From positions 496,001 to 560,000 of the forward strand of contig NZ_CP065217.1 in NCBI RefSeq assembly GCF_015767675.1: a stretch of 64,000 nt of DNA, read 5' to 3'. Shown in pieces: positions 54,360-64,000 of the stretch. The stretch comes from Vibrio navarrensis (GTDB lineage Bacteria > Pseudomonadota > Gammaproteobacteria > Enterobacterales > Vibrionaceae). Made by a program: the position numbers and the translations under genes. Each line of letters opens with the position of its first letter. Within the stretch, counting starts at the first letter, position 1. The notes under the pieces are model-generated. The model was not told the origin of the DNA and made no database searches. It saw nothing but the letters and a program-made list of their open reading frames with translations.

Positions 54360-55172
54360 ATGTCTCAGGGATACCTTACCTTTCCCAATATTGATCCTGT
54401 GTTGATTTCTATCGGCCCCATTTCCGTTCGTTGGTATGGGCTGATGTATTTGGTCGGATTTATGTTTGCCATGTGGCTGGCCAATCGGCGAGCGGATAAG
54501 CCCAACAGTGGCTGGAACCGCGAACAAGTTTCCGATCTATTGTTTGCAGGGTTTCTTGGCGTGGTCGTTGGTGGGCGTTTAGGCTACGTGCTTTTCTACA
54601 ACTTTGACCTGTTTTTAGCTGATCCTCTGTATTTGTTTAAGGTTTGGACAGGCGGTATGTCATTCCACGGCGGCTTGCTTGGTGTGATTACTGCGATGTT
54701 GTGGTATGCCAAGAAGCATGGCCGCACCCTCTTTGGTGTCGCAGATTTTGTCGCACCGTTAGTGCCGTTTGGGCTTGGTGTTGGTCGCCTTGGCAACTTT
54801 ATGAATGGCGAGCTGTGGGGCCGAGTAACTGATGCGCCTTGGGCGATGGTTTTCCCGACGGGAGGGCCACTGCCTCGCCACCCTTCACAACTGTACGAAA
54901 TGGCGTTAGAAGGCGTGGTTCTCTTCTTTATTCTCAACTGGTTTATCCGTAAACCTCGCCCGCTTGGCTCGGTCTCTGGGCTATTTTTGGCTGGATATGG
55001 TACATTCCGCTTCCTTGTGGAATACGTACGTGAGCCGGATGCGCATTTAGGTCTGTTTGGTGGTTTCATTTCGATGGGGCAGATCTTGTCTTCTCCGATG
55101 ATCTTCGGTGGATTGGCACTAATGCTGTGGGCTTACAAACGTGGTCACTACCAAGATAAAGCAAGTGCATAG
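54360..55172 (+). CDS. lgt: Prolipoprotein diacylglyceryl transferase
   Basis: 270-residue inner-membrane enzyme that attaches diacylglycerol to the lipobox cysteine of prolipoproteins, first step of lipoprotein maturation. [19 protein letters not shown] begins it. The signature [19 protein letters not shown] contains the essential Arg and Asn; SFHGGLLGV has the conserved His. [19 protein letters not shown] lies in the last third. thyA starts 12 nt after its stop, the usual lgt-thyA order. Confidence 0.96.
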
Positions 55173-55184
55173 TAAGGAATTGAA

Positions 55185-55757
55185 GTGAAACAATATTTAG
55201 AACTGTGTCGCCGCATCGTCGATGACGGACACTGGGTTGAAAATGAGCGCACCGGTAAGCGCTGTCTTACGGTGATCAACGCGGATTTAACCTACAATGT
55301 TGCCAACAACCAATTCCCTCTAGTGACAACACGTAAGAGTTTTTGGAAAGCGGCTGTGGCTGAGCTGCTGGGTTACATTCGTGGGTATGATAGCGCCGCG
55401 GATTTTCGCAAACTTGGCACAAAAACTTGGGATGCCAATGCTAACTTAAACCAAGCATGGCTTAGCAACCCTTATCGCAAAGGGGAAGATCACATGGGCC
55501 GGGTTTATGGAGTTCAAGGACGTTCTTGGGCCAAACCGGATGGTGGCCATATCGACCAGTTACGCAAAATTGTCGATGACTTGAGTCGTGGGATTGACGA
55601 TCGCGGTGAAATTCTCAATTTCTTCAATAAAGTACCCCTCAAAAAACTACTAGTTAGTGAGTGGGTGAGTGAGTTGCCTTTTATATCAAGACTTTTAAGA
55701 TGCTTTAATACTAGTAGTCACTACCAGTGCCCACTACAAGTTACTCAAGGAGCCTAG
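55185..55757 (+). pseudogene. thyA: Resident thyA cut by an integrated element
   Basis: 5' part of the chromosomal thymidylate synthase gene. The GTG start (55185) has AAGGAAT upstream. Residues 1-148 match the long (about 283-residue) ThyA type of Vibrio, e.g. [20 protein letters not shown] and [20 protein letters not shown]. At GEILNFFN the match stops (55,617-55,628), where the family continues with YNPGEFHMG and the catalytic cysteine. The last 42 codons are element DNA and unrelated. The product lacks the active site, so it cannot work as thymidylate synthase. A complete thyA of another type follows. Its upstream promoter and coupling to lgt are intact. Confidence 0.9.
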
Positions 55758-55759
55758 CA

Positions 55760-56554
55760 ATGAAACAATATCACGACTTAATGAAAAGAATCCTTGAAGA
55801 GGGTACAGAAAGGGGAGACAGAACAGGTACAGGTACACTTTCAGTCTTTGGTCATCAAATGAGATTTAACCTATCAGAGGGTTTTCCGCTGGTTACAACG
55901 AAGAAATGTCATTTACGATCAATTATCCATGAACTCCTTTGGTTCTTGAAAGGAGACACCAACATCACTTACCTAAAAGAAAATGGTGTAAGTATTTGGG
56001 ATGAGTGGGCAGATGAGAATGGTGATCTTGGCCCTGTTTACGGATATCAGTGGCGGTCTTGGCCTAATTCTGACGGTAGCCACACTGACCAGATTGCGAA
56101 TGTGGTAGATGCTATTAAGAACAACCCAAATAGCAGAAGACACATGGTTGTTGCCTATAACCCATCTTTTGTAGATGAGATGGCACTACCTCCATGTCAT
56201 GCGATGTTTCAGTTTTATGTAGCAAATGGCAAGCTTTCGTGTCAGCTTTATCAGAGAAGTTGCGACGTTTTCTTGGGGCTTCCGTTTAATATTGCCTCTT
56301 ATGCGCTTTTAACTCATATGATTGCACAACAGTGTGATTTAGATGTTGGAGACTTTGTTTGGACTGGAGGGGATACTCATCTTTACCTTAATCACTTAGA
56401 GCAAACTAACCTCCAGCTTTCAAGAGAACCATATCCACTTCCAGAGCTGAAAATCAACCGCAAACCTGACAGCTTATTTGACTATAAGTTTGAGGACTTT
56501 GAAATCGTAGGCTACGAATGTCACCCTCATATCAAAGCTCCTGTAGCCGTATAA
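55760..56554 (+). CDS. thyA: Replacement thymidylate synthase, short (Escherichia) type
   Basis: Complete 264-residue ThyA, the same length as E. coli ThyA, making dTMP from dUMP with methylene-tetrahydrofolate. ATG at 55760 with AAGGAG at optimal distance; a longer in-frame start at 55727 has no site. Cys146 in [12 protein letters not shown] is the nucleophile, at the E. coli position. [50 protein letters not shown] and [13 protein letters not shown] are conserved. The protein is much less like the resident 283-residue type, so it did not arise by duplication. It is carried by the element and placed to be read from the lgt-thyA promoter. Confidence 0.94.
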
Positions 56555-56584
56555 GCCGCTTGCCCCTAAAGGTTTAGCAAGGTG

Positions 56585-56666
56585 ATGGTCAAGTAAAATA
56601 ATAAAGCCAATCGTAACGCTCGTGTAGCTCACTACTCGCTAGGCATTTATGATTTTTCTTGACCAT
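56585..56666 (+). repeat. Long imperfect hairpin downstream of the replacement thyA
   Basis: An inverted repeat of about 24-25 nt per arm: left arm 56585-56608 starts ATGGTCAAG and ends AAAGCC; right arm 56642-56666 starts GGCATTTATG and ends CTTGACCAT. The arms differ at about two positions plus one bulge. The loop is 33 nt. It lies 31 nt after the thyA stop. It may be the thyA terminator or processing structure, or the remnant of a miniature element. It has no T run. Confidence 0.6.
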
Positions 56667-56716
56667 TCGCTTGACATGATAGGGTAAAATACGTTTTACG
56701 CGAAAAATTAAAAATA

Positions 56717-56747
56717 AAGTGAGTTAGATTATTAACCTAACTCACTT
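56717..56747 (-). terminator. Terminator of the SMC-like ATPase gene
   Basis: Perfect 11-bp stem AAGTGAGTTAG (56717-56727) / CTAACTCACTT (56737-56747), 9-nt loop. On the minus strand it is followed by TATTTTTAATTTTT. It lies 23 nt beyond the ATPase stop. Confidence 0.85.
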
Positions 56748-56769
56748 ATAAGTTCGCGTAATTTAATCA

Positions 56770-59580
56770 TCAAGAAATAGAAATTTTTGAGTCTGCTAAG
56801 TTACCCTCGTGTACTGATAGGTATGGATTAAGCATATCAATTAGCTTAACTGTGTCGCTTAATAATTTTTCGTTCTCTACAATTTTGCTCAAATGACGAT
56901 TTACAATTTCAGGAGGGGCACTTTCTATAAAATTTTTATTATCTCTATACCTTTTGATATCAATGCCAATTTCATTCTCTAAAGATTCTCTTTTTGAAAT
57001 CAATTTTTCATGGTGAATATCTGCATCAATAATCATTTCTAGCTTGCATAAGCTTTCATATATTACTCTTACTTCGTCACTTGTTGTTGAGTGAGAGAAA
57101 TTTAAATTGTATTCATCATATCCGTGATGCTCTTGATTCTGTCCTTGCCAATTAACCAAGTCCTTTTTAAGTAGTAAAAATATACCATGCTTATCTGAAA
57201 AACAATCTTCAAACTTTCTATATGTATCCTCTAAGCTTATTTCCAACAGATTGTTTTTACGATAATTCCTCTCACTGAACTTTGCTTTTACTTCAATTCC
57301 ATTTGAAATGCAGTAATTATTTACCATGCTCTCAAGCCAGATTCTAGAGTAAACTAAAGCTTGTCTTATGTCATAAAAATCTAAAGCTTTTTCTATTTTT
57401 GATTTAAAGCTAACGTCTTGCTCTATAAGTACAACTCCATCATTGTAGTATTTCATTACCCTACTAATGAATTCACTATCCTGAGAACAATAGTTACATA
57501 TTCTCTCCCAGAATAACCTATCATGAGTAGTTATTATTCTTTGAGTTTTTGATAGGTACGGATCTGCTATAAATAATTCAATAATGTTTTTTCTATGATC
57601 GCTGTCAATCGCATTCACTACATCATCGAAGATAATTGTTGGATGGTTCTGCTTTTCACAGATTGCTAGTAATAAAGATAAACCCAATGAACGTAAATGC
57701 CCCTCACTCAAAATACAAAATGCATCAAGCTCTCTACCATCTGAAAGCCTTAAGAGTATCCTATAATTACCATTGTCTTCTTTGAAATTAATAGAATGAA
57801 TTTTTTCAAGCTCATGGTCATGTTTGTTTATTTCTGTATAGAATTTAAGGGCTGAATCTTCGATGTTACTTATGGATTTGCATTCTTCTTGCCTCTTGTA
57901 ATTAACTAAGTTTAGGTACAATTTTTTATGACTTTCTTCTAGTTCAACAAGGAAGCGATTTAAATACTTTTCTTGTTTCACTTTTGAAGCTAAAACCTTT
58001 AGTTGATTAACTATCTCAAGTCGGTCTTTGTTATATTCGCTTAATCTTTCAAGGTATTTTATTGACGTACTAATTTTATCGTCGATTAATTGTATATCAT
58101 GGTCTAACTTGCTGTATCTTTCATTGAGTTTATCTGTTACTTCGTCATATTTATTAACTGATTCATTATTGCTAACAACTAGCGCATTATATTCATCAGT
58201 AACTTTATCAACATTATAGATCACAGATAAAGCTGTAGAGTAGTCACCTTGTTCTAAGTTAATTTTTAGATTATTTACAATCGATATAGCATCTAATTTA
58301 ACGACAAAATCATTTGACAATTCATCAATTGACAATAATAGACTGGACTTAACTTTTTCAATTGAATCAACTACGAGTTTCAACCTATTTTCTAACGTTG
58401 ACAAATATGATAGTTTATCAAGTTCACTTTTCGAGTTAATTAGGGGGTTAATAACAGTTTTATTGATATCAGTATGACAAGCTGGGCATTTCTCTACATC
58501 ATTTATATCAATTATTGATTGATATAACTCTCTGTAACTGAGTAGCCTTGTTCTATCTTCAAGCGATTTTTCAATCGATAATTTAATTCTTCTGGCAGTT
58601 TCAAGCTTATTTAGCCAATGGCGAAATTCAATTAACCTAACCTCTTTTGACTTAACTCCCTTAGAGCGTTTGGAAATTTTATCAAAAAGATTTTTTTTAT
58701 ATTTTTTAAGAAATTTTAACTTACATCTTATAGAATATTTATCAATGTATCTCAAAGAAAGTAAGTTTGAAATTGATCGTAGGTTTTCCGAGTAGTATTT
58801 CCGTACATCTATAGTTTTCTGTTGTATCTGTTCTAAATTTTTCGAACAAAGAGCACTTTCTGATTGCGATCTATCTGCATGAAATTGTTGAAGTTTGAAT
58901 GATTCTGGCTTTACAGTATTTCTTATAATGTCGTCAATTTCTTCAAGTTGGAATAAGACGGCTAGCACATCATTATGAGTGAACTTTGTATCTTTTGAGC
59001 CAAGCAGTGAAAACTCTTGTAGTCGGTTACGATCGATAAAACAATTATTTCTTCTTCTATCAATTTTGTTAATTGAACCATCAACCAAATTAGCAACTAC
59101 TTGAGGTTTTGTAGAATTCCTTTTTATATATTGACTTAGCTTGGTATTTCTTCTGTCTGCTTCTTTAATTGAACCTGTGAGAGAATATTCAATTGCTTCA
59201 CATAAAGAAGTTTTTCCACCACCATTGGGGGCGTAAAATAAATTTATCCCAGTAGAAAACTCAATGAAAGAACCTTTGTCGTTTTTGTTTAATTGTCCGA
59301 ATCCTCGGAAATTTGAAATTGATATACTTTCTATCGGATCAAGAGTGCTGTTATCTAAATTATCGCTAAACTGCAAAGGTTCATTTATAACGCTAAGATA
59401 TTTAGCGCGTTTTCTAGTCAGACTATCAATAGTTTTTGCAATGTTTTCGGGTGTTAGATCTTGAACGATACTCTTGCTAATTTTTGTTCTTGAGTACAAT
59501 TTTTCTAATAGAAAAAGATAACTAGGTTCACTTTCACTTAATAAGTTTGTTATCAAAAAGTTGTGTAGATGATAGCTCAT
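56770..59580 (-). CDS. SMC/Rad50-like AAA ATPase with zinc hook, putative defence protein
   Basis: 936 residues; not a gene I can name. ISISNFRGFGQLNKN (residues 86-100) and YAPNGGGKTSLCEAIEYSL (Walker A Lys123) begin an ABC/SMC-type head. Long coiled-coil segments flank CPAC (365-368), the zinc-hook motif of Rad50-like proteins. The second half of the head has LSEGHLRSLGLSLLLAI (ABC signature, about 624-640), PTIIFDDVVNAIDSD (Walker B) and ITTHDRLFW (H-loop). About 240 residues after that are helical and of unknown function; LVYSRIWLESMVNNYC and the late NFSHSTTSDEV recall HEPN-type pairs, but this is weak. Similar ATPases occur in Lamassu, RloC-like and other anti-phage systems. It is AT-rich with many AAT/ATT codons. 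The RES protein gene lies upstream on the same strand. Confidence 0.85.
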   Translation of the reverse strand: MSYHLHNFLITNLLSESEPSYLFLLEKLYSRTKISKSIVQDLTPENIAKTIDSLTRKRAKYLSVINEPLQFSDNLDNSTLDPIESISISNFRGFGQLNKNDKGSFIEFSTGINLFYAPNGGGKTSLCEAIEYSLTGSIKEADRRNTKLSQYIKRNSTKPQVVANLVDGSINKIDRRRNNCFIDRNRLQEFSLLGSKDTKFTHNDVLAVLFQLEEIDDIIRNTVKPESFKLQQFHADRSQSESALCSKNLEQIQQKTIDVRKYYSENLRSISNLLSLRYIDKYSIRCKLKFLKKYKKNLFDKISKRSKGVKSKEVRLIEFRHWLNKLETARRIKLSIEKSLEDRTRLLSYRELYQSIIDINDVEKCPACHTDINKTVINPLINSKSELDKLSYLSTLENRLKLVVDSIEKVKSSLLLSIDELSNDFVVKLDAISIVNNLKINLEQGDYSTALSVIYNVDKVTDEYNALVVSNNESVNKYDEVTDKLNERYSKLDHDIQLIDDKISTSIKYLERLSEYNKDRLEIVNQLKVLASKVKQEKYLNRFLVELEESHKKLYLNLVNYKRQEECKSISNIEDSALKFYTEINKHDHELEKIHSINFKEDNGNYRILLRLSDGRELDAFCILSEGHLRSLGLSLLLAICEKQNHPTIIFDDVVNAIDSDHRKNIIELFIADPYLSKTQRIITTHDRLFWERICNYCSQDSEFISRVMKYYNDGVVLIEQDVSFKSKIEKALDFYDIRQALVYSRIWLESMVNNYCISNGIEVKAKFSERNYRKNNLLEISLEDTYRKFEDCFSDKHGIFLLLKKDLVNWQGQNQEHHGYDEYNLNFSHSTTSDEVRVIYESLCKLEMIIDADIHHEKLISKRESLENEIGIDIKRYRDNKNFIESAPPEIVNRHLSKIVENEKLLSDTVKLIDMLNPYLSVHEGNLADSKISIS

Positions 59581-59878
59581 TTATTATAACTTATTAAAAA
59601 ATAGCATGATATCATGTAGCTCACCAAAAATCAATTAGTTGCATATTAATCTAAGCCCAACCCCGCAATAGCAGACTCAGATCTTGCTTTTTCACTCATT
59701 ACTTTCTATATATAAAAATTCGAAGATTATATGAAACTCGCTTCAATTCTGAAGCAAACTTTGGGACACTAGCAAATTGATACATACGCCAGCTCACCGT
59801 GGGACAATTTCGAGTTAAACTCCAAACTATAGTGGAGCTTAATCAAACGGATGCATCGGATTGTTTAACCCTTATATG
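59581..59878. other. Intergenic region between the RES gene and the ATPase gene
   Basis: 298 bp, no gene. Two direct copies of TGGGACA occur at 59762-59768 and 59800-59806 in an otherwise unremarkable AT-rich stretch. No terminator is obvious after the RES stop, so readthrough into the ATPase is possible. The ATPase start has no strong Shine-Dalgarno. Confidence 0.45.
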
Positions 59879-61165
59879 TTAGAAATCTATATCTTCAACG
59901 TCGTCGATCACTAATAAATTTTGCTTTCTTGCAAGAGTTTTCACAGCTTCAATATAATGCAACTCTAAACTACCATGGACAAATGATAAATTGGCTTCAG
60001 ATTTTTGGGAAGGAAGGTTTTCGCTAAATTTTTCTGAGTATGTATACCAGTCATCTTCTTGATGATGCCACTCTTTAAATATAATTTTTCTTTCTTTATT
60101 ATACGTAAAAGAGTTGACATCGGATCTCTCTGGAAATAACACAACATTCAAACCATTAAAACCTGTTTGAACAGATGAAAATATTAAACCAGAAATGTCA
60201 CTACCAAAATTCACTCTGAAATATTCAAATATAACCTGCGTCTCTAAGTAGTTAGAATTTTTCCTTTTTGAAGCAGGCTTAGATAAAAGAAACATTAGTC
60301 GCTTTAAAAATAGGCTTTTGTGTGATTTTTCTAAATAATTGCTCTCAAATGGATGGTATTCTTTTTTACTTAACTCTTCAATTTTACGCAAGTCTAAAAG
60401 CTTCAATGGTCGATTCACAGTAAACTCACCAGAAATTACCAAATCACCTGTAATTGCTCGAACCTCACTGAAGCATGTTTCACGATCTGATGATGCATAA
60501 AATGCAGAGATACCTTTTGGAGTCATCCTTTGATCACTAGCTAATTTAGCTGGCACTGCTCCTAACTGATTTGCTGGATCACTAATTATACTCTCTCGTT
60601 CTATTTTAGAGTTTGCAATTCGAGCACGGAATAAAGATACGTTAGGTTCTAACACTGTACATATATCGTCATTAACGTGATTGTTTTCATGTATCACAGA
60701 GAACAAATCGTCTAGGAACTGGTTAACTTCAAAGTTAAAAAATCGTTTCCCGTGTGAAATGGAATCGATGAAACAAAGCCATTTATCTTGATATAAATTA
60801 TTCTCTAATGTCCCATTATTTAGAGTAAATAGATTATTTTCAACATCTACCTGCTGTGACAAATAGCTAGATAAATCACGTTCTAACGCCTCATTCTTCA
60901 GTCCGATATCGTGTATAATTTCCCATATTTCTTTTACATATAGGTCATCACTTCCACACCAGAATGAAGAACTTTCCTGTGGACTACATTCATCAATAGG
61001 AATAATAGCTTCAAAAAAATTATTTTCGATAAAGGAGAAAACACTCTCTTTTGGAGCTACGATACTTTTAGAGTCGCAGTAGCAACAGACTTCTTGACCT
61101 ATATTAAGCCTTTCAACCTCTTTTTGAACCTCACCTACTTCCACACATTCCTTACAGATATACAT
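59879..61165 (-). CDS. RES-domain protein with N-terminal zinc ribbon
   Basis: 428 residues from the ATG at 61163-61165; AGGAA lies 9 nt upstream and a GTG one codon earlier is in frame. The N-terminus has paired cysteines C4-x2-C7 and C27/C30 (a zinc ribbon), then about 130 helical residues as in the HEPN/RES N-terminal family. The RES fold follows: SLFRARI (Arg about 180), GISAFYASSDRETCFSEVRA (Tyr about 223, Glu about 234) and LETQVIFEYFRV with a later LIFSSVQ (Ser about 330). RES proteins such as MbcT and those of Xre-RES modules degrade NAD+ and poison the cell. No small Xre antitoxin is directly upstream. Same strand as the ATPase, so a toxic effector with an ATPase sensor is plausible but unproven. 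Confidence 0.82.
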   Translation of the reverse strand: MYICKECVEVGEVQKEVERLNIGQEVCCYCDSKSIVAPKESVFSFIENNFFEAIIPIDECSPQESSSFWCGSDDLYVKEIWEIIHDIGLKNEALERDLSSYLSQQVDVENNLFTLNNGTLENNLYQDKWLCFIDSISHGKRFFNFEVNQFLDDLFSVIHENNHVNDDICTVLEPNVSLFRARIANSKIERESIISDPANQLGAVPAKLASDQRMTPKGISAFYASSDRETCFSEVRAITGDLVISGEFTVNRPLKLLDLRKIEELSKKEYHPFESNYLEKSHKSLFLKRLMFLLSKPASKRKNSNYLETQVIFEYFRVNFGSDISGLIFSSVQTGFNGLNVVLFPERSDVNSFTYNKERKIIFKEWHHQEDDWYTYSEKFSENLPSQKSEANLSFVHGSLELHYIEAVKTLARKQNLLVIDDVEDIDF

Positions 61166-61905
61166 CACAACATTCCTATGACCAAATCAATTACCAGACT
61201 GCAACCTTCCGAATAATCAACCACTATTTTTGAGTCAGGTATTCTCTGGTTGGCTTATAGATGACAACCTATTTATACTTAAGAAACAGTAAATTATCAG
61301 GTTAGAGTTTAAGATGCCAGTGACACTATACGACAAGTTGCTGCATACCTTAAATATGACTAAGCGGTGACTCATATACTTTGGGCAAGGAACTGCTTTT
61401 GTCGCCAACGCTCTCATCGAACATAAGAAAAATCTAGGTTAATTTACCTTTACACCAAACCCATTGATAGCTCTATCTAAAACGTCTTGGGGCGTGCGAT
61501 GTGAGGTCGTATGAAGCGCTGTTCACCGCTCAATGTGTGAACCATCAGTATCACCAGATGAACCTAAGAGCCTGAATAAAGTAGCGGCTCCGACAATGTA
61601 ACGAAGGTTGGCATTCGCCAATCGGGATCTAAATCGTGAGAGGACGATCCTCCTGATAACCACAAAATTGGGTGAGTGCTAGGTAATCAGCATGATGAAC
61701 ATACGTGAATTCGCATAAGGTGCGTTATACGTTGAAATAGCGGAAGTGGTTAATACGCTGTAGCCAAAAGGCAAGAGAGTCGAAAGAGATTACCCCATGA
61801 TCTTTCGTGGTCATTGAACTCTCCGCAACATAGCTGTGAAAAACAGCCCTATCCCTAAAATAAACTCCAATCGATTCAGCCCAAACTACATACAAACCTA
61901 ACTCA
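61166..61905. other. 740-bp non-coding region with an intron-like segment
   Basis: Between the RES gene and the XRE regulator. The first 330 bp have no recognisable gene; a 60-codon minus ORF at 61235-61417 has no supporting signal. From 61494 on the sequence looks like structured RNA (see the group II intron-like entry). The last 70 bp before the XRE stop are plain. Confidence 0.5.
61494..61805 (+). mobile_element. 5' fragment of a group II intron (domain I), probable
   Basis: Begins with GTGCG at 61494-61498, the conserved 5' end (GTGYG) of group II introns. Many short, GC-richer hairpins follow: GTTCAC...GTGAAC (about 61520-61543), GAGCC...GGCTC (about 61569-61591), GGTTGGC...GCCAATC (about 61605-61623) and GAGAGGACGATCCTC (about 61638-61652). 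AATGTAACGAAGG is of a type common in domain I. The base composition is less AT-rich than its flanks. No reverse transcriptase gene and no domain V/VI hairpin are found before the XRE gene, so if it is an intron it is truncated and inactive. I cannot confirm by alignment. Confidence 0.45.
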
Positions 61906-62115
61906 TTAAGGCAGAAGTTCCTTCACATCACAGCCCAAAGCGTCTGCAATCTGATACAACTTTTCAAGCGTGATATTGATTTTACCGCGTTCGATGCGGC
62001 TCATATAGCTTCTATCTATCTCAGCGACGAGGGCTAGCTTCTCTTGAGGTAAACCTTTGGATCTTCTCATTTGTACAATACGTTGGCCTACAGCTTCGGC
62101 AAGTTTCGTGTTCAT
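61906..62115 (-). CDS. XRE-family transcriptional regulator
   Basis: 69-residue single-domain helix-turn-helix protein. RIVQMRRSKGLPQEKLALVA and IDRSYMSRIERGKINITLEK form the HTH; YQIADALGCDVKELLP ends it, in the style of HipB and of restriction-control (C) proteins. It is transcribed away from the 181-residue protein and the HipA-like kinase. The shared 99-bp promoter region carries two 12-bp palindromes, the natural place for it to bind. No good Shine-Dalgarno is seen. It is probably the antitoxin or repressor of the neighbouring cluster. Confidence 0.85.
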   Translation of the reverse strand: MNTKLAEAVGQRIVQMRRSKGLPQEKLALVAEIDRSYMSRIERGKINITLEKLYQIADALGCDVKELLP

Positions 62116-62128
62116 GTTTTTTATTTAT

Positions 62129-62186
62129 GAAATTAATTTCCTGAACAATGCACACTTGCGGACTATATGACCACGGATTATAATCC
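62129..62186 (+). promoter_or_regulatory. Divergent promoter with two palindromic operators
   Basis: Plus-strand promoter: TTGCGG (62156-62161), 17 bp, TATAAT (62179-62184). The -10 lies inside the perfect palindrome GGATTATAATCC (62175-62186), so a bound repressor would block it. A second perfect palindrome GAAATTAATTTC is at 62129-62140, next to the XRE gene start. The two centres are 46 bp apart. The XRE protein is the likely ligand. Confidence 0.75.
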
Positions 62187-62214
62187 TCAAAATTAACGCA
62201 ATCGGTCATTTTTT

Positions 62215-62760
62215 ATGCAATCGAAGGTAAAAATCAGAAAAGAGCTATTTCTCGCCATTTATTACAATGAACACTTCTCTGCCAACGACCTAAAATCCTT
62301 TCCATTAGACAGTGATGAAAAAGAATACTTATCGGATGAATACGTCGAAAAAAAATTGAAGGAAATGTCGTTGATCGGCGGAGTCCTTTCGTGCGGTTTC
62401 GATAAGCATGGTGATGAAGAATTTTCCAAAGGTTTTATGTTTAACCATATCGACTGGGAGGTCGTGGATTACGATAACTACAGTGAGGACTCCAACTGCC
62501 TTTCTTTCAAAAGAGAAAGTCTTTTGACGATTTTGCAAGATAAACAGTCAGAGCTGTCAGAGTCCTATTCTCTTCATAAAAGGACATGGAAGCATTTCAA
62601 TCGGTTGTGTGCTCAACACTCAGAACTTCGGCTGTGTTTAGACGAGTATATATCCGAGTATGACAATCGTAGGCTGGATCTCAAAGCCGAAATGCAGGCA
62701 GTAGAAAACGCAATTACCTTCTACAAAAACACAGCCCACCCAGTAGAAAGTGGGAACTAA
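62215..62760 (+). CDS. Unknown 181-residue protein preceding the HipA-like kinase
   Basis: Soluble, acidic protein: MQSKVKIRKELFLAIYYNEH, then DEYVEKKLKEMSLIGGVLS, and a charged helical tail (residues 95-175; LDEYISEYDNRRLDLKAEMQ) that may form a coiled coil. I recognise no domain. The kinase frame starts next to its stop (TTG at 62762, one base after TAA, or GTG at 62750 inside it), so the two are translationally coupled. It is not HipS, the small partner in HipBST systems, since it is longer and its kinase still has an intact N-terminal subdomain. A role in kinase control is inferred from position alone. Confidence 0.75.
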   Translation: MQSKVKIRKELFLAIYYNEHFSANDLKSFPLDSDEKEYLSDEYVEKKLKEMSLIGGVLSCGFDKHGDEEFSKGFMFNHIDWEVVDYDNYSEDSNCLSFKRESLLTILQDKQSELSESYSLHKRTWKHFNRLCAQHSELRLCLDEYISEYDNRRLDLKAEMQAVENAITFYKNTAHPVESGN

Positions 62761-62761
62761 T

Positions 62762-64000
62762 TTGCACAATCCTATACTTTACGCACATGCTACAAACAAC
62801 AACATGCTCGTGGGGCAGTTTGTCCAACAGTCGAAGACCAACGTATCATTTTCATACTCTGATGAGTGGTTAGCATATGATTCAGCTTTCCCTATTTCGT
62901 TAAGCCTACCGCTTGTAAGGGGAGAATGCTCAGCATTTAATGCACTGAATTTTATGTATAACCTGCTTCCTGACTTGGAAGAAGAACGATTAAGTATTGC
63001 TCACTCGGTCGGTGTGCAATCCAACGATGTATTCACCTTACTCTCAAAAATTAGTCACGATTGCACGGGCGGCATTTCATTTACTGAGAGTAGGGAGCCG
63101 CCAAAGATAGGGTGGAAATATCGAGAGATCTCGGCAAGTGAATTAAATGAACTCGTTACCCAGCGTAAGTCATTTCTTCCATTCTTTGGGGATTATCGAC
63201 CTTGTATTTCGGGAACACAGCGAAAAACAACGTTAACTAGGTTGAACGGTAAATGGTATGTACCTCAAGAGAAATCACTAAGTAGCCACATTATCAAATT
63301 CCCAATGGATGTAATTGCGCAAAGCAACTCAGTATTAGATATGAGCGGCAGTGTTGAGAATGAATTCATCTGTACTCAAATAGCGAAGGAACTTGGTTTT
63401 AAAGTCCCCGATATTGAGATAATAACCGCAGAATCAGGAGCTAAAGGCCTTGCAGTAAAACGGTTCGACCGATGTTTTGGTGATGGAGTTGTGACTCGTA
63501 GACACCAAGAAGATTTCTGCCAGATTTTTGGTGTACCTGAACATCAAAAATATCAATCGGAGAACAACCTAAGTGTCTCCAAAATTGTTGATGCTTTAAG
63601 TCTCTCTGCGGAAAGCAAGGTGAACAATTATGATTTTTTTAAGTTCATGATTTTACAGTGCCTTCTTGGAGCCACTGACGGTCATCTCAAGAACTTTTCC
63701 GTGCATATTGCTCCAGGCGGGCACTATCAGCTCGCACCGTTCTACGATTTGCTATCAGCTTATCCTGCCGTCGGTGCTACTGGGTTAAATAAGCGAAAGT
63801 TAAAGCTAGCTATGGGACTGAAAGCATCACGAGGATACAAATACCATATCAACAAAATTTGCTTACGCCATATAGAGCAGACAGCTAATCAGTTCGGTAT
63901 CAGCAATACGAACTGTCATGAAATCGTCTCTGCCTTTCTCGCTCAATTTAGTAGCGCACTTAGCTCTGTAGACAATCGATTTCCTGAAAAGGAGTTCACG
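62762..64000 (+). CDS. hipA: HipA-family serine/threonine kinase toxin, partial at the window end
   Basis: At least 413 residues; the frame is open at the right edge. I start it at TTG 62762 with GGGA upstream (a GTG at 62750 is in frame). The N-subdomain reads LVGQFVQQSKTNVSFSYSDE and then FPISLSLPL. The HipA glycine-rich loop is SGTQRKT (150-156). VENEFICTQIAKELGF, LAVKRFDR and RRHQEDFCQIFG follow. The catalytic motif is DGHLKN (306-311, Asp306), and the metal-binding loop APFYDLLSAYP comes next. All key residues are present, so the kinase should be active. HipA phosphorylates aminoacyl-tRNA synthetases and causes dormancy. Expected partner: the divergent XRE protein. Confidence 0.9.
   Translation, partial: MHNPILYAHATNNNMLVGQFVQQSKTNVSFSYSDEWLAYDSAFPISLSLPLVRGECSAFNALNFMYNLLPDLEEERLSIAHSVGVQSNDVFTLLSKISHDCTGGISFTESREPPKIGWKYREISASELNELVTQRKSFLPFFGDYRPCISGTQRKTTLTRLNGKWYVPQEKSLSSHIIKFPMDVIAQSNSVLDMSGSVENEFICTQIAKELGFKVPDIEIITAESGAKGLAVKRFDRCFGDGVVTRRHQEDFCQIFGVPEHQKYQSENNLSVSKIVDALSLSAESKVNNYDFFKFMILQCLLGATDGHLKNFSVHIAPGGHYQLAPFYDLLSAYPAVGATGLNKRKLKLAMGLKASRGYKYHINKICLRHIEQTANQFGISNTNCHEIVSAFLAQFSSALSSVDNRFPEKEFT

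Follow-up and report, generated by a model that had tools for sequence, protein, structure and literature searches.

Genomic islands that interrupt a gene required for dTTP synthesis and at the same time supply the missing function have a published precedent. In Pseudomonas putida KT2440, a 65-kb island splits tmk and carries the essential dNMPK gene PP_1964 (PMC10653934). The authors present this island as a "first-case example" and mention similar islands in other genera as well as standalone genes (Wirth et al. 2023; PMC10653934). GInts, i.e., islands with the ginABCD genes, begin their cargo at the stop codon of the fourth gene; their insertion sites are reported to be located at gene ends, at 5' ends or between genes, and the target is argued not to be fully inactivated (Bardaji et al. 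2017; PMC5385486). For strand-biased circularizing elements and Tn554-type elements, the accessible text describes no target gene that is both split and replaced (PMC10214605). Our literature searches, for which most subscription journals lay outside coverage, retrieved no earlier report of islands inserted in thyA, and a general search for elements carrying a copy of their own target found no matching paper. Group I introns do occur in thymidylate synthase genes, e.g., in td of phage T4; these introns also represent mobile DNA inside conserved thymidylate synthase motifs, but they are spliced from the message, whereas in the islands described below the gene is cut and another copy is supplied. 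Gamma-mobile-trio (GMT) islands, which were reportedly described by Mahata et al. in 2024, are a further point of reference.

The stretch analyzed here, referred to as the window, comprises 64,000 nucleotides (positions 496001-560000 of contig C1) from the 5.1-Mb genome of Vibrio navarrensis. Without thymidine, thyA is an essential gene. A preliminary description had proposed that an element integrated into the resident thyA and brought a built-in replacement. Both halves of the gene, exact 6-bp junctions and a complete second thyA were indeed recovered, and a site-specific island has very probably integrated inside thyA, with a complete, diverged thyA at its left end that would keep up dTMP synthesis of the host. 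The features of the locus are compiled in Table 1.

Table 1. Features of the thyA island and its left junction (positions within the window unless marked C1)
Feature	Position	Strand	Remarks
Resident long-type thyA, 5' part	55185..55622	+	146 codons; 95.7% identity to the intact G098 gene
Left recombination core	55623..55628		TTCAAT; empty site TATAAC; right core TTCAAC, C1:576683-576688
Chimeric open frame	55185..55757	+	190 aa; truncated ThyA plus 42 island codons
Island portion inside the window	55629..64000		Rest runs to C1:576682
Shine-Dalgarno-like motif	55747..55752	+	AAGGAG; judged by eye
Replacement thyA	55760..56554	+	264 aa; E. coli type; PF00303 430 bits; NF002499 506.8 bits (cut-off 405)
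RecF/SMC-like ATPase	56770..59580	-	936 aa; cargo; SMC_N 64 bits; weak PADLOC matches
HEPN_RES_NTD1 plus RES domain protein	59879..61168	-	429 aa; cargo
XRE-type regulator	61906..62115	-	69 aa; cargo; HTH_3
Protein upstream of the HipA-like gene	62215..62760	+	181 aa; cargo; no Pfam match; 88% identity to G108 island protein
HipA-like kinase	62750..64000	+	Cargo; cut by the window end; 439 aa in full from ATG

A PF00303 search of the genome revealed three thymidylate synthase matches, namely, the 5' part of the resident gene (C1:551188-551643), a complete thyA (C1:551763-552551) and the 3' part of the resident gene (C1:576680-577093). The resident thyA is of the long type and starts with GTG 12 nt beyond the stop codon of lgt, which ends at 55172, exactly as the preliminary description had it. 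Comparison of the resident DNA with 227 genomes of the genus identified an intact thyA in G098 (96% identity over 724 bp) and in G033 (95%), both of them close species. Their alignment to the window diverges at the predicted point, and the 3' remainder, sought beyond the right end of the window, was located together with the right border (C1:576683-577093). The empty site of G098 reads AATTTC-TATAAC-CCCGG, with TACAAC as the core in G033, and the alignment to both species gives a left junction of AATTTC-TTCAAT-AAAG and a right junction of AATAA-TTCAAC-CCCGG; outside the 6-bp core, no host bases were lost at insertion. The island hence extends over 25,060 bp from the left core (C1:551623, window 55623) to the right core (C1:576683). 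The earlier statement that the resident gene is intact to codon 148 holds with respect to the break itself, but the relatives can be followed only to codon 146, and position 55628 marks the end of the core. Since codons 147 and 148 read TTC-AAT rather than TAT-AAC as in G098, they represent the recombination core. It is extremely unlikely that this arrangement stems from misassembly or from simple duplication of thyA with no mobile element involved. The contig measures 3.53 Mb, the two junctions share one 6-bp core, and a comparable situation was encountered in 12 other genomes; two halves of one gene, recombinases at one island end and the intact site in two close species contradict such explanations as well.

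The start codon of the replacement gene lies 132 nt past position 55628, in agreement with the predicted full-length Escherichia-type thyA in the same direction, about 130 bp on, with a good Shine-Dalgarno sequence. Its product aligns with E. coli thymidylate synthase structures over 264 of 264 residues, and ten active-site positions (E. coli numbering) are identical in all 27 resident, 13 island (the window's own included) and 7 solo ThyA proteins compared. The claimed strong difference between the two types is reflected by an identity of 31% over 148 resident residues. The resident frame stays open across the 42 island codons to a TAG stop at 55755-55757, 2 nt before the replacement ATG; an open frame of this length is not rare by chance. 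Between 55150 and 55760, a single terminator-like site was detected, on the minus strand, and no promoter-like site on either strand. Because of this, and because of the stop-start coupling, reading of the replacement thyA from the lgt-thyA promoter fits the locus, and we infer transcription from this promoter together with translational coupling as the simplest model. RNA structure at the left end of the island was considered and dismissed (z 0.02; 95 of 200 shuffles fold equally well).

In the proposed mechanism, a multi-gene tyrosine-recombinase module would move the island into conserved thyA coding sequence, with strand exchange presumably performed by GmtY/GmtZ-like proteins. The carried thyA, as the first gene of the left end and in the same direction as the broken gene, would be transcribed from the lgt-thyA promoter, translated by stop-start coupling and yield an active enzyme, so that the host would keep its dTMP synthesis. 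Precise excision would rebuild the old gene due to the 6-bp core, with Phe instead of Tyr at residue 147, and cells should be Thy+ whether they carry the island or not. After imprecise loss, no thyA would remain, which would tie the host to its island. Due to its 31% identity to the resident, the replacement gene should not offer a target site.

From left to right, the island contains thyA, the RecF/SMC-like ATPase, the HEPN/RES protein, the XRE regulator and the 181-residue protein with the HipA-like kinase (HipA_C, 161.7 bits; 76% identity to its counterpart in the G108 island), followed by other genes without family call, UmuDC-like genes, a possible regulator and the recombinase end. The HEPN/RES protein (59879-61168) beside a large SMC-like ATPase with weak defense-family matches is possible anti-phage cargo. 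A perfect 35-bp direct repeat is located between cargo genes (L004:13829-13863 and L004:13877-13911, 13 bp apart). Inverted repeats between the two island ends were discarded as weak (8 of 200 shuffles score as high). Read inwards from the right end, a 497-residue tyrosine recombinase comes first, followed by a protein of 1134 residues that matches Integrase_2 and, weakly, phage integrases, by two smaller proteins (228 and 145 residues) and by a RecD2-like helicase.

In common with GMT islands, this island has relatives of GmtY and GmtZ and a VPA1267-family protein, the latter being an association with GMT islands and not part of their published definition. It differs in that its recombinases score 181.9 bits against GmtY (NF040693; curated cut-off 340) and 264.3 bits against GmtZ (NF047926; cut-off 600), whereas the 145-residue protein exceeds the VPA1267 cut-off of 90 with 197.5 bits; GmtX is absent among the NCBIfam matches of the 228-residue protein, a collection that may hold no GmtX model. 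By the curated models, the recombinases are diverged relatives of the GMT proteins and not members. Where GmtY-like matches occur in Vibrio genomes (13 loci), the genes preceding the recombinase appeared, by eye and within a range of at most 1.5 kb, either complete or uninformative instead of split.

For the 497-residue recombinase, the best match listed for the genus outside its own genome is 28% identical (E 3.9e-20), and among 394 genomes of the order only its own passes E 1e-30. A protein database search returned 17 sequences with 57-87% identity over 97-98% of the query. Plasmids gave a single match (33% over half of the query), and two scans of viral contigs gave one weak relative and none, respectively. 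A pattern scan of a genome collection yielded one relative, 44% identical, in a metagenome-assembled genome (MAG) of Propionivibrio. There, the DNA adjoining the start of the GmtY-like gene is, by eye, the 3' part of an HNH-endonuclease gene oriented like thyA in the window. On another contig, an HNH domain search found an HNH gene that covers profile positions 1-37 of 47 only, with a complete HNH gene in the same direction about 400 bp downstream, whose start is overlapped by the cut frame by 13 nt. The roughly 130 bp between the HNH genes align with the left end of the window island (0 of 200 shuffles as good, z 6.1), while the right ends of both islands show no alignment above chance (54 of 200 shuffles). 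As judged from two contigs of one MAG, the Propionivibrio island apparently interrupts an HNH gene and brings another one at the position that thyA occupies in the window island. Islands of this kind may hence carry a substitute for whatever gene is targeted.

The search for further genomes with a split and a second thyA covered 589 genomes, i.e., 227 of the genus, which were screened with PF00303 and examined further in cases of multiple matches, and 362 others of the order (from an order sample of 394, of which 32 belong to the same genus). A split thyA is present in six of the 227 genomes (G000, i.e., the window's, G210, G222, G028, G011 and G108) and in seven of the 362 (G431, G398, G388, G564, G295, G320 and G578), and in each of the 13 a complete thyA is present as well. 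This complete gene lies between the two pieces, on one contig, in 11 genomes; the 3' piece of G011 and that of G388 are located on a separate contig. The check suggested by the preliminary description thus succeeded in 12 additional genomes (5 of the genus and 7 of the order), but its specific arrangement of a truncated long-type thyA with a short-type gene directly behind recurs solely in G564, with other recombinases, and the other islands place the gene elsewhere. Several genomes were left out of the count of splits: in G145 and G254 the pieces sit at contig edges or on a small contig, in G007 and G094 they overlap and probably reflect frameshifts, and G070 has a complete gene plus two pieces with low scores. 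Also left out were G018, G101, G111, G201, G202, G230, G269, G344, G372 and G554, which have a second low-scoring thymidylate-synthase-like gene; in the first five of these ten, the second protein has 318-351 aa and may be a phage-type nucleotide hydroxymethylase. A split gene escapes this search if just one of its pieces passes the E-value limit.

As estimated from translated junctions, the cuts lie near codon 110 (G108), 147 (G000), 165 (G295), 217 (G320) and, in G210, G222, G028, G011, G431, G398, G388 and G564, near codon 187, to which the cut short-type codon of G578 corresponds, amounting to about five positions over all islands. A short-type thyA was carried into a long-type resident in G000, G398, G388, G295 and G564; seven islands combine long with long, and G578 brought a long-type gene into a short-type one.

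The window's own recombinase type was found in just one thyA island, its own. Ten of the 13 islands share another module of three recombinase-like genes and a small fourth gene (in G320 assigned by place and size only), the recombinases being 23-85% identical between genomes. Pfam assigns the first two genes of G210 to the phage-integrase family, with the third scoring under the cut-off; the third gene is in two frames in G210 and G011. Set beside GInts by their published description, these ten islands agree in gene order and sizes (10 of 10) and in the start of the cargo, and the exchanged 6-nt core is shared even by the window island (PMC5385486). The thyA islands differ from GInts, as described there, in that the target is cut mid-gene and replaced (PMC5385486), and the window island has no ginABCD-like operon, its best match to a GInt-like recombinase being a short piece of 31-37% identity. 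In all ten GInt-like islands, the complete thyA is the first gene past the fourth module gene. It is co-directional with the recombinase operon in G398, G388, G578, G295 and G320, with frames overlapping by 1-4 nt in all but G578, and convergent in the five islands of Vibrionaceae. In the Vibrionaceae GInt-like islands, the second recombinase-like gene starts with several repeats of one unit (L109:103-1995, L110:8520-9578), which is present once or more in G210 and varies in number between genomes. The G210 island additionally harbors restriction-modification-like genes and, nested within it, a 470-aa TnpB-like beside a 172-aa TnpA-like protein (L077:8157-10081), by eye of the IS200/IS605 type.

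The remaining two islands have modules of their own. G108 encodes unrelated proteins of 742, 708, 195 and 451 residues, of which only the last is a phage integrase by Pfam, and its island thyA is located beside the resident 3' piece. In G564, the left end opens with thyA; next come three proteins (977, 699 and 143 residues), a RecD2-like helicase with 30% identity to that of the window island and a 427-residue protein that is a recombinase by eye. Judged from these gene sets, at least four recombinase modules, the window's included, are associated with a thyA inside thyA. The islands of the window (62215-64000 and L004:11462-11851) and of G108 (L104:1929-4634) share the 181-aa protein, the HipA-like kinase and a 129-aa protein. 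These neighboring cargo proteins are 88, 76 and 74% identical, and their occurrence beside unrelated recombinases, in the same gene of different species, is read as cargo exchange at a common site.

Does the carried thyA reflect an evolved link between target and cargo? It might instead be ordinary nucleotide-metabolism cargo, with insertions in thyA being seen only where a spare copy exists. The gene is common on mobile DNA, given that 1250 of 50,697 phage records match the window ThyA at E 1e-60 or better, and a hit in thyA without a spare would be lost, which alone would account for the 13 of 13. Such a survivor bias appears improbable to us, since thyA is not scattered over the islands but directly follows the recombinase operon in all ten GInt-like cases and heads the left end of both the window island and that of G564, and since in the Propionivibrio relative of the window island the carried gene matches another target. 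With respect to selection on the carried genes, the five thyA genes of the Vibrionaceae GInt-like islands form 10 pairs, of which seven have a finite dS, in most cases above 1, and yield dN/dS values of 0.028-0.063; saturation was observed for the remaining three, for all five pairings with G193 and for G388-G398. In G108 and G320, the changes at conserved positions of the carried ThyA show a peak where the island itself is inserted (a level reached by 8 of 246 overlapping windows in either case), and the other seven long-type genes tested lack such a peak (78 to 149 of 246 windows as high). At the DNA level, six of the nine islands tried gave a value, with 4 to 18 mismatches of 30 at the target site, and three, the window's own among them, were not placeable. 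The protein comparison provides only a hint of target-site immunity through divergence.

Beyond the islands, solo genes may indicate how such an integration ends. Beside lgt, the usual arrangement is a co-directional long-type thyA. In G193, the sole thyA at the lgt locus is reversed (L111:12035-12895) and groups as sister with the five Vibrionaceae island genes (100/100). In six other Vibrio species (G060 and five more, L070-L075), a reversed short, E. coli-type thyA is located between lgt and a LysR-type gene, with a variable lgt-thyA gap, and these six genes group with those carried in G398 and G388 (98/93). One of the six, G201, has two low-scoring thymidylate-synthase-like genes in addition. 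A remnant of the resident thyA was detected neither at the six G060-type loci by tblastn with the resident protein nor by eye in G193. Solo genes left behind by island loss after replacement and solo genes later captured by islands would both give the observed picture. We consider it possible, but rather doubtful, that the reversed chromosomal genes came first. The sister position of the G193 gene, which is not nested within the island genes, and the missing remnants are consistent with such a capture, and the same alternative has been raised for dNMPK by Wirth et al. (PMC10653934). However, the solo genes occupy the resident's own place beside lgt and are convergent with lgt in seven of seven cases, as would be expected for a gene that remains after a Vibrionaceae GInt-like island has decayed.

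What characterizes the tmk case, an essential gene that is split and a carried gene of the same activity, is found at the sequence level for thyA, of which both halves and an intact site were recovered. In both systems, a tyrosine-recombinase island with variable cargo splits an essential gene of dTTP synthesis and carries a gene for its function, and some strains have the standalone substitute only (PMC10653934). The systems differ with respect to the target and to the substitute, which for tmk is a phage-T4-related kinase but for thyA a homolog of the split gene; moreover, the thyA islands use several recombinase modules, and the replaced function is deduced from their genes (PMC10653934). 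New relative to tmk may be the target, the homologous replacement, the several recombinase systems and a carried gene that perhaps changes with the target.

We tentatively propose, with somewhat less than even confidence, that gene-swapping islands represent a general lifestyle, in which unrelated recombinase systems evolve to cut far into conserved, essential genes and keep a target-immune decoy copy of the gene they cut, wired to the recombinase operon or to the left end. Which gene is carried would depend on the target (thyA in Vibrio, HNH in Propionivibrio), and decay would leave the foreign gene behind. What has been published as one case, for tmk in P. putida and its relatives, would become a recurrent strategy, with at least four recombinase modules bringing the same replacement gene into the same target. 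The question can be put to the test, given that one genus offers islands, empty sites and possible end states alike, and the observations suggest looking in every gene-splitting island for a carried homolog of the split gene. The islands open a path for a distant version to take over from an essential core gene with no lethal step in between. If the proposal is true, gene-swapping islands would, through their decay, drive such takeovers in core genes, again without passing through a lethal intermediate.
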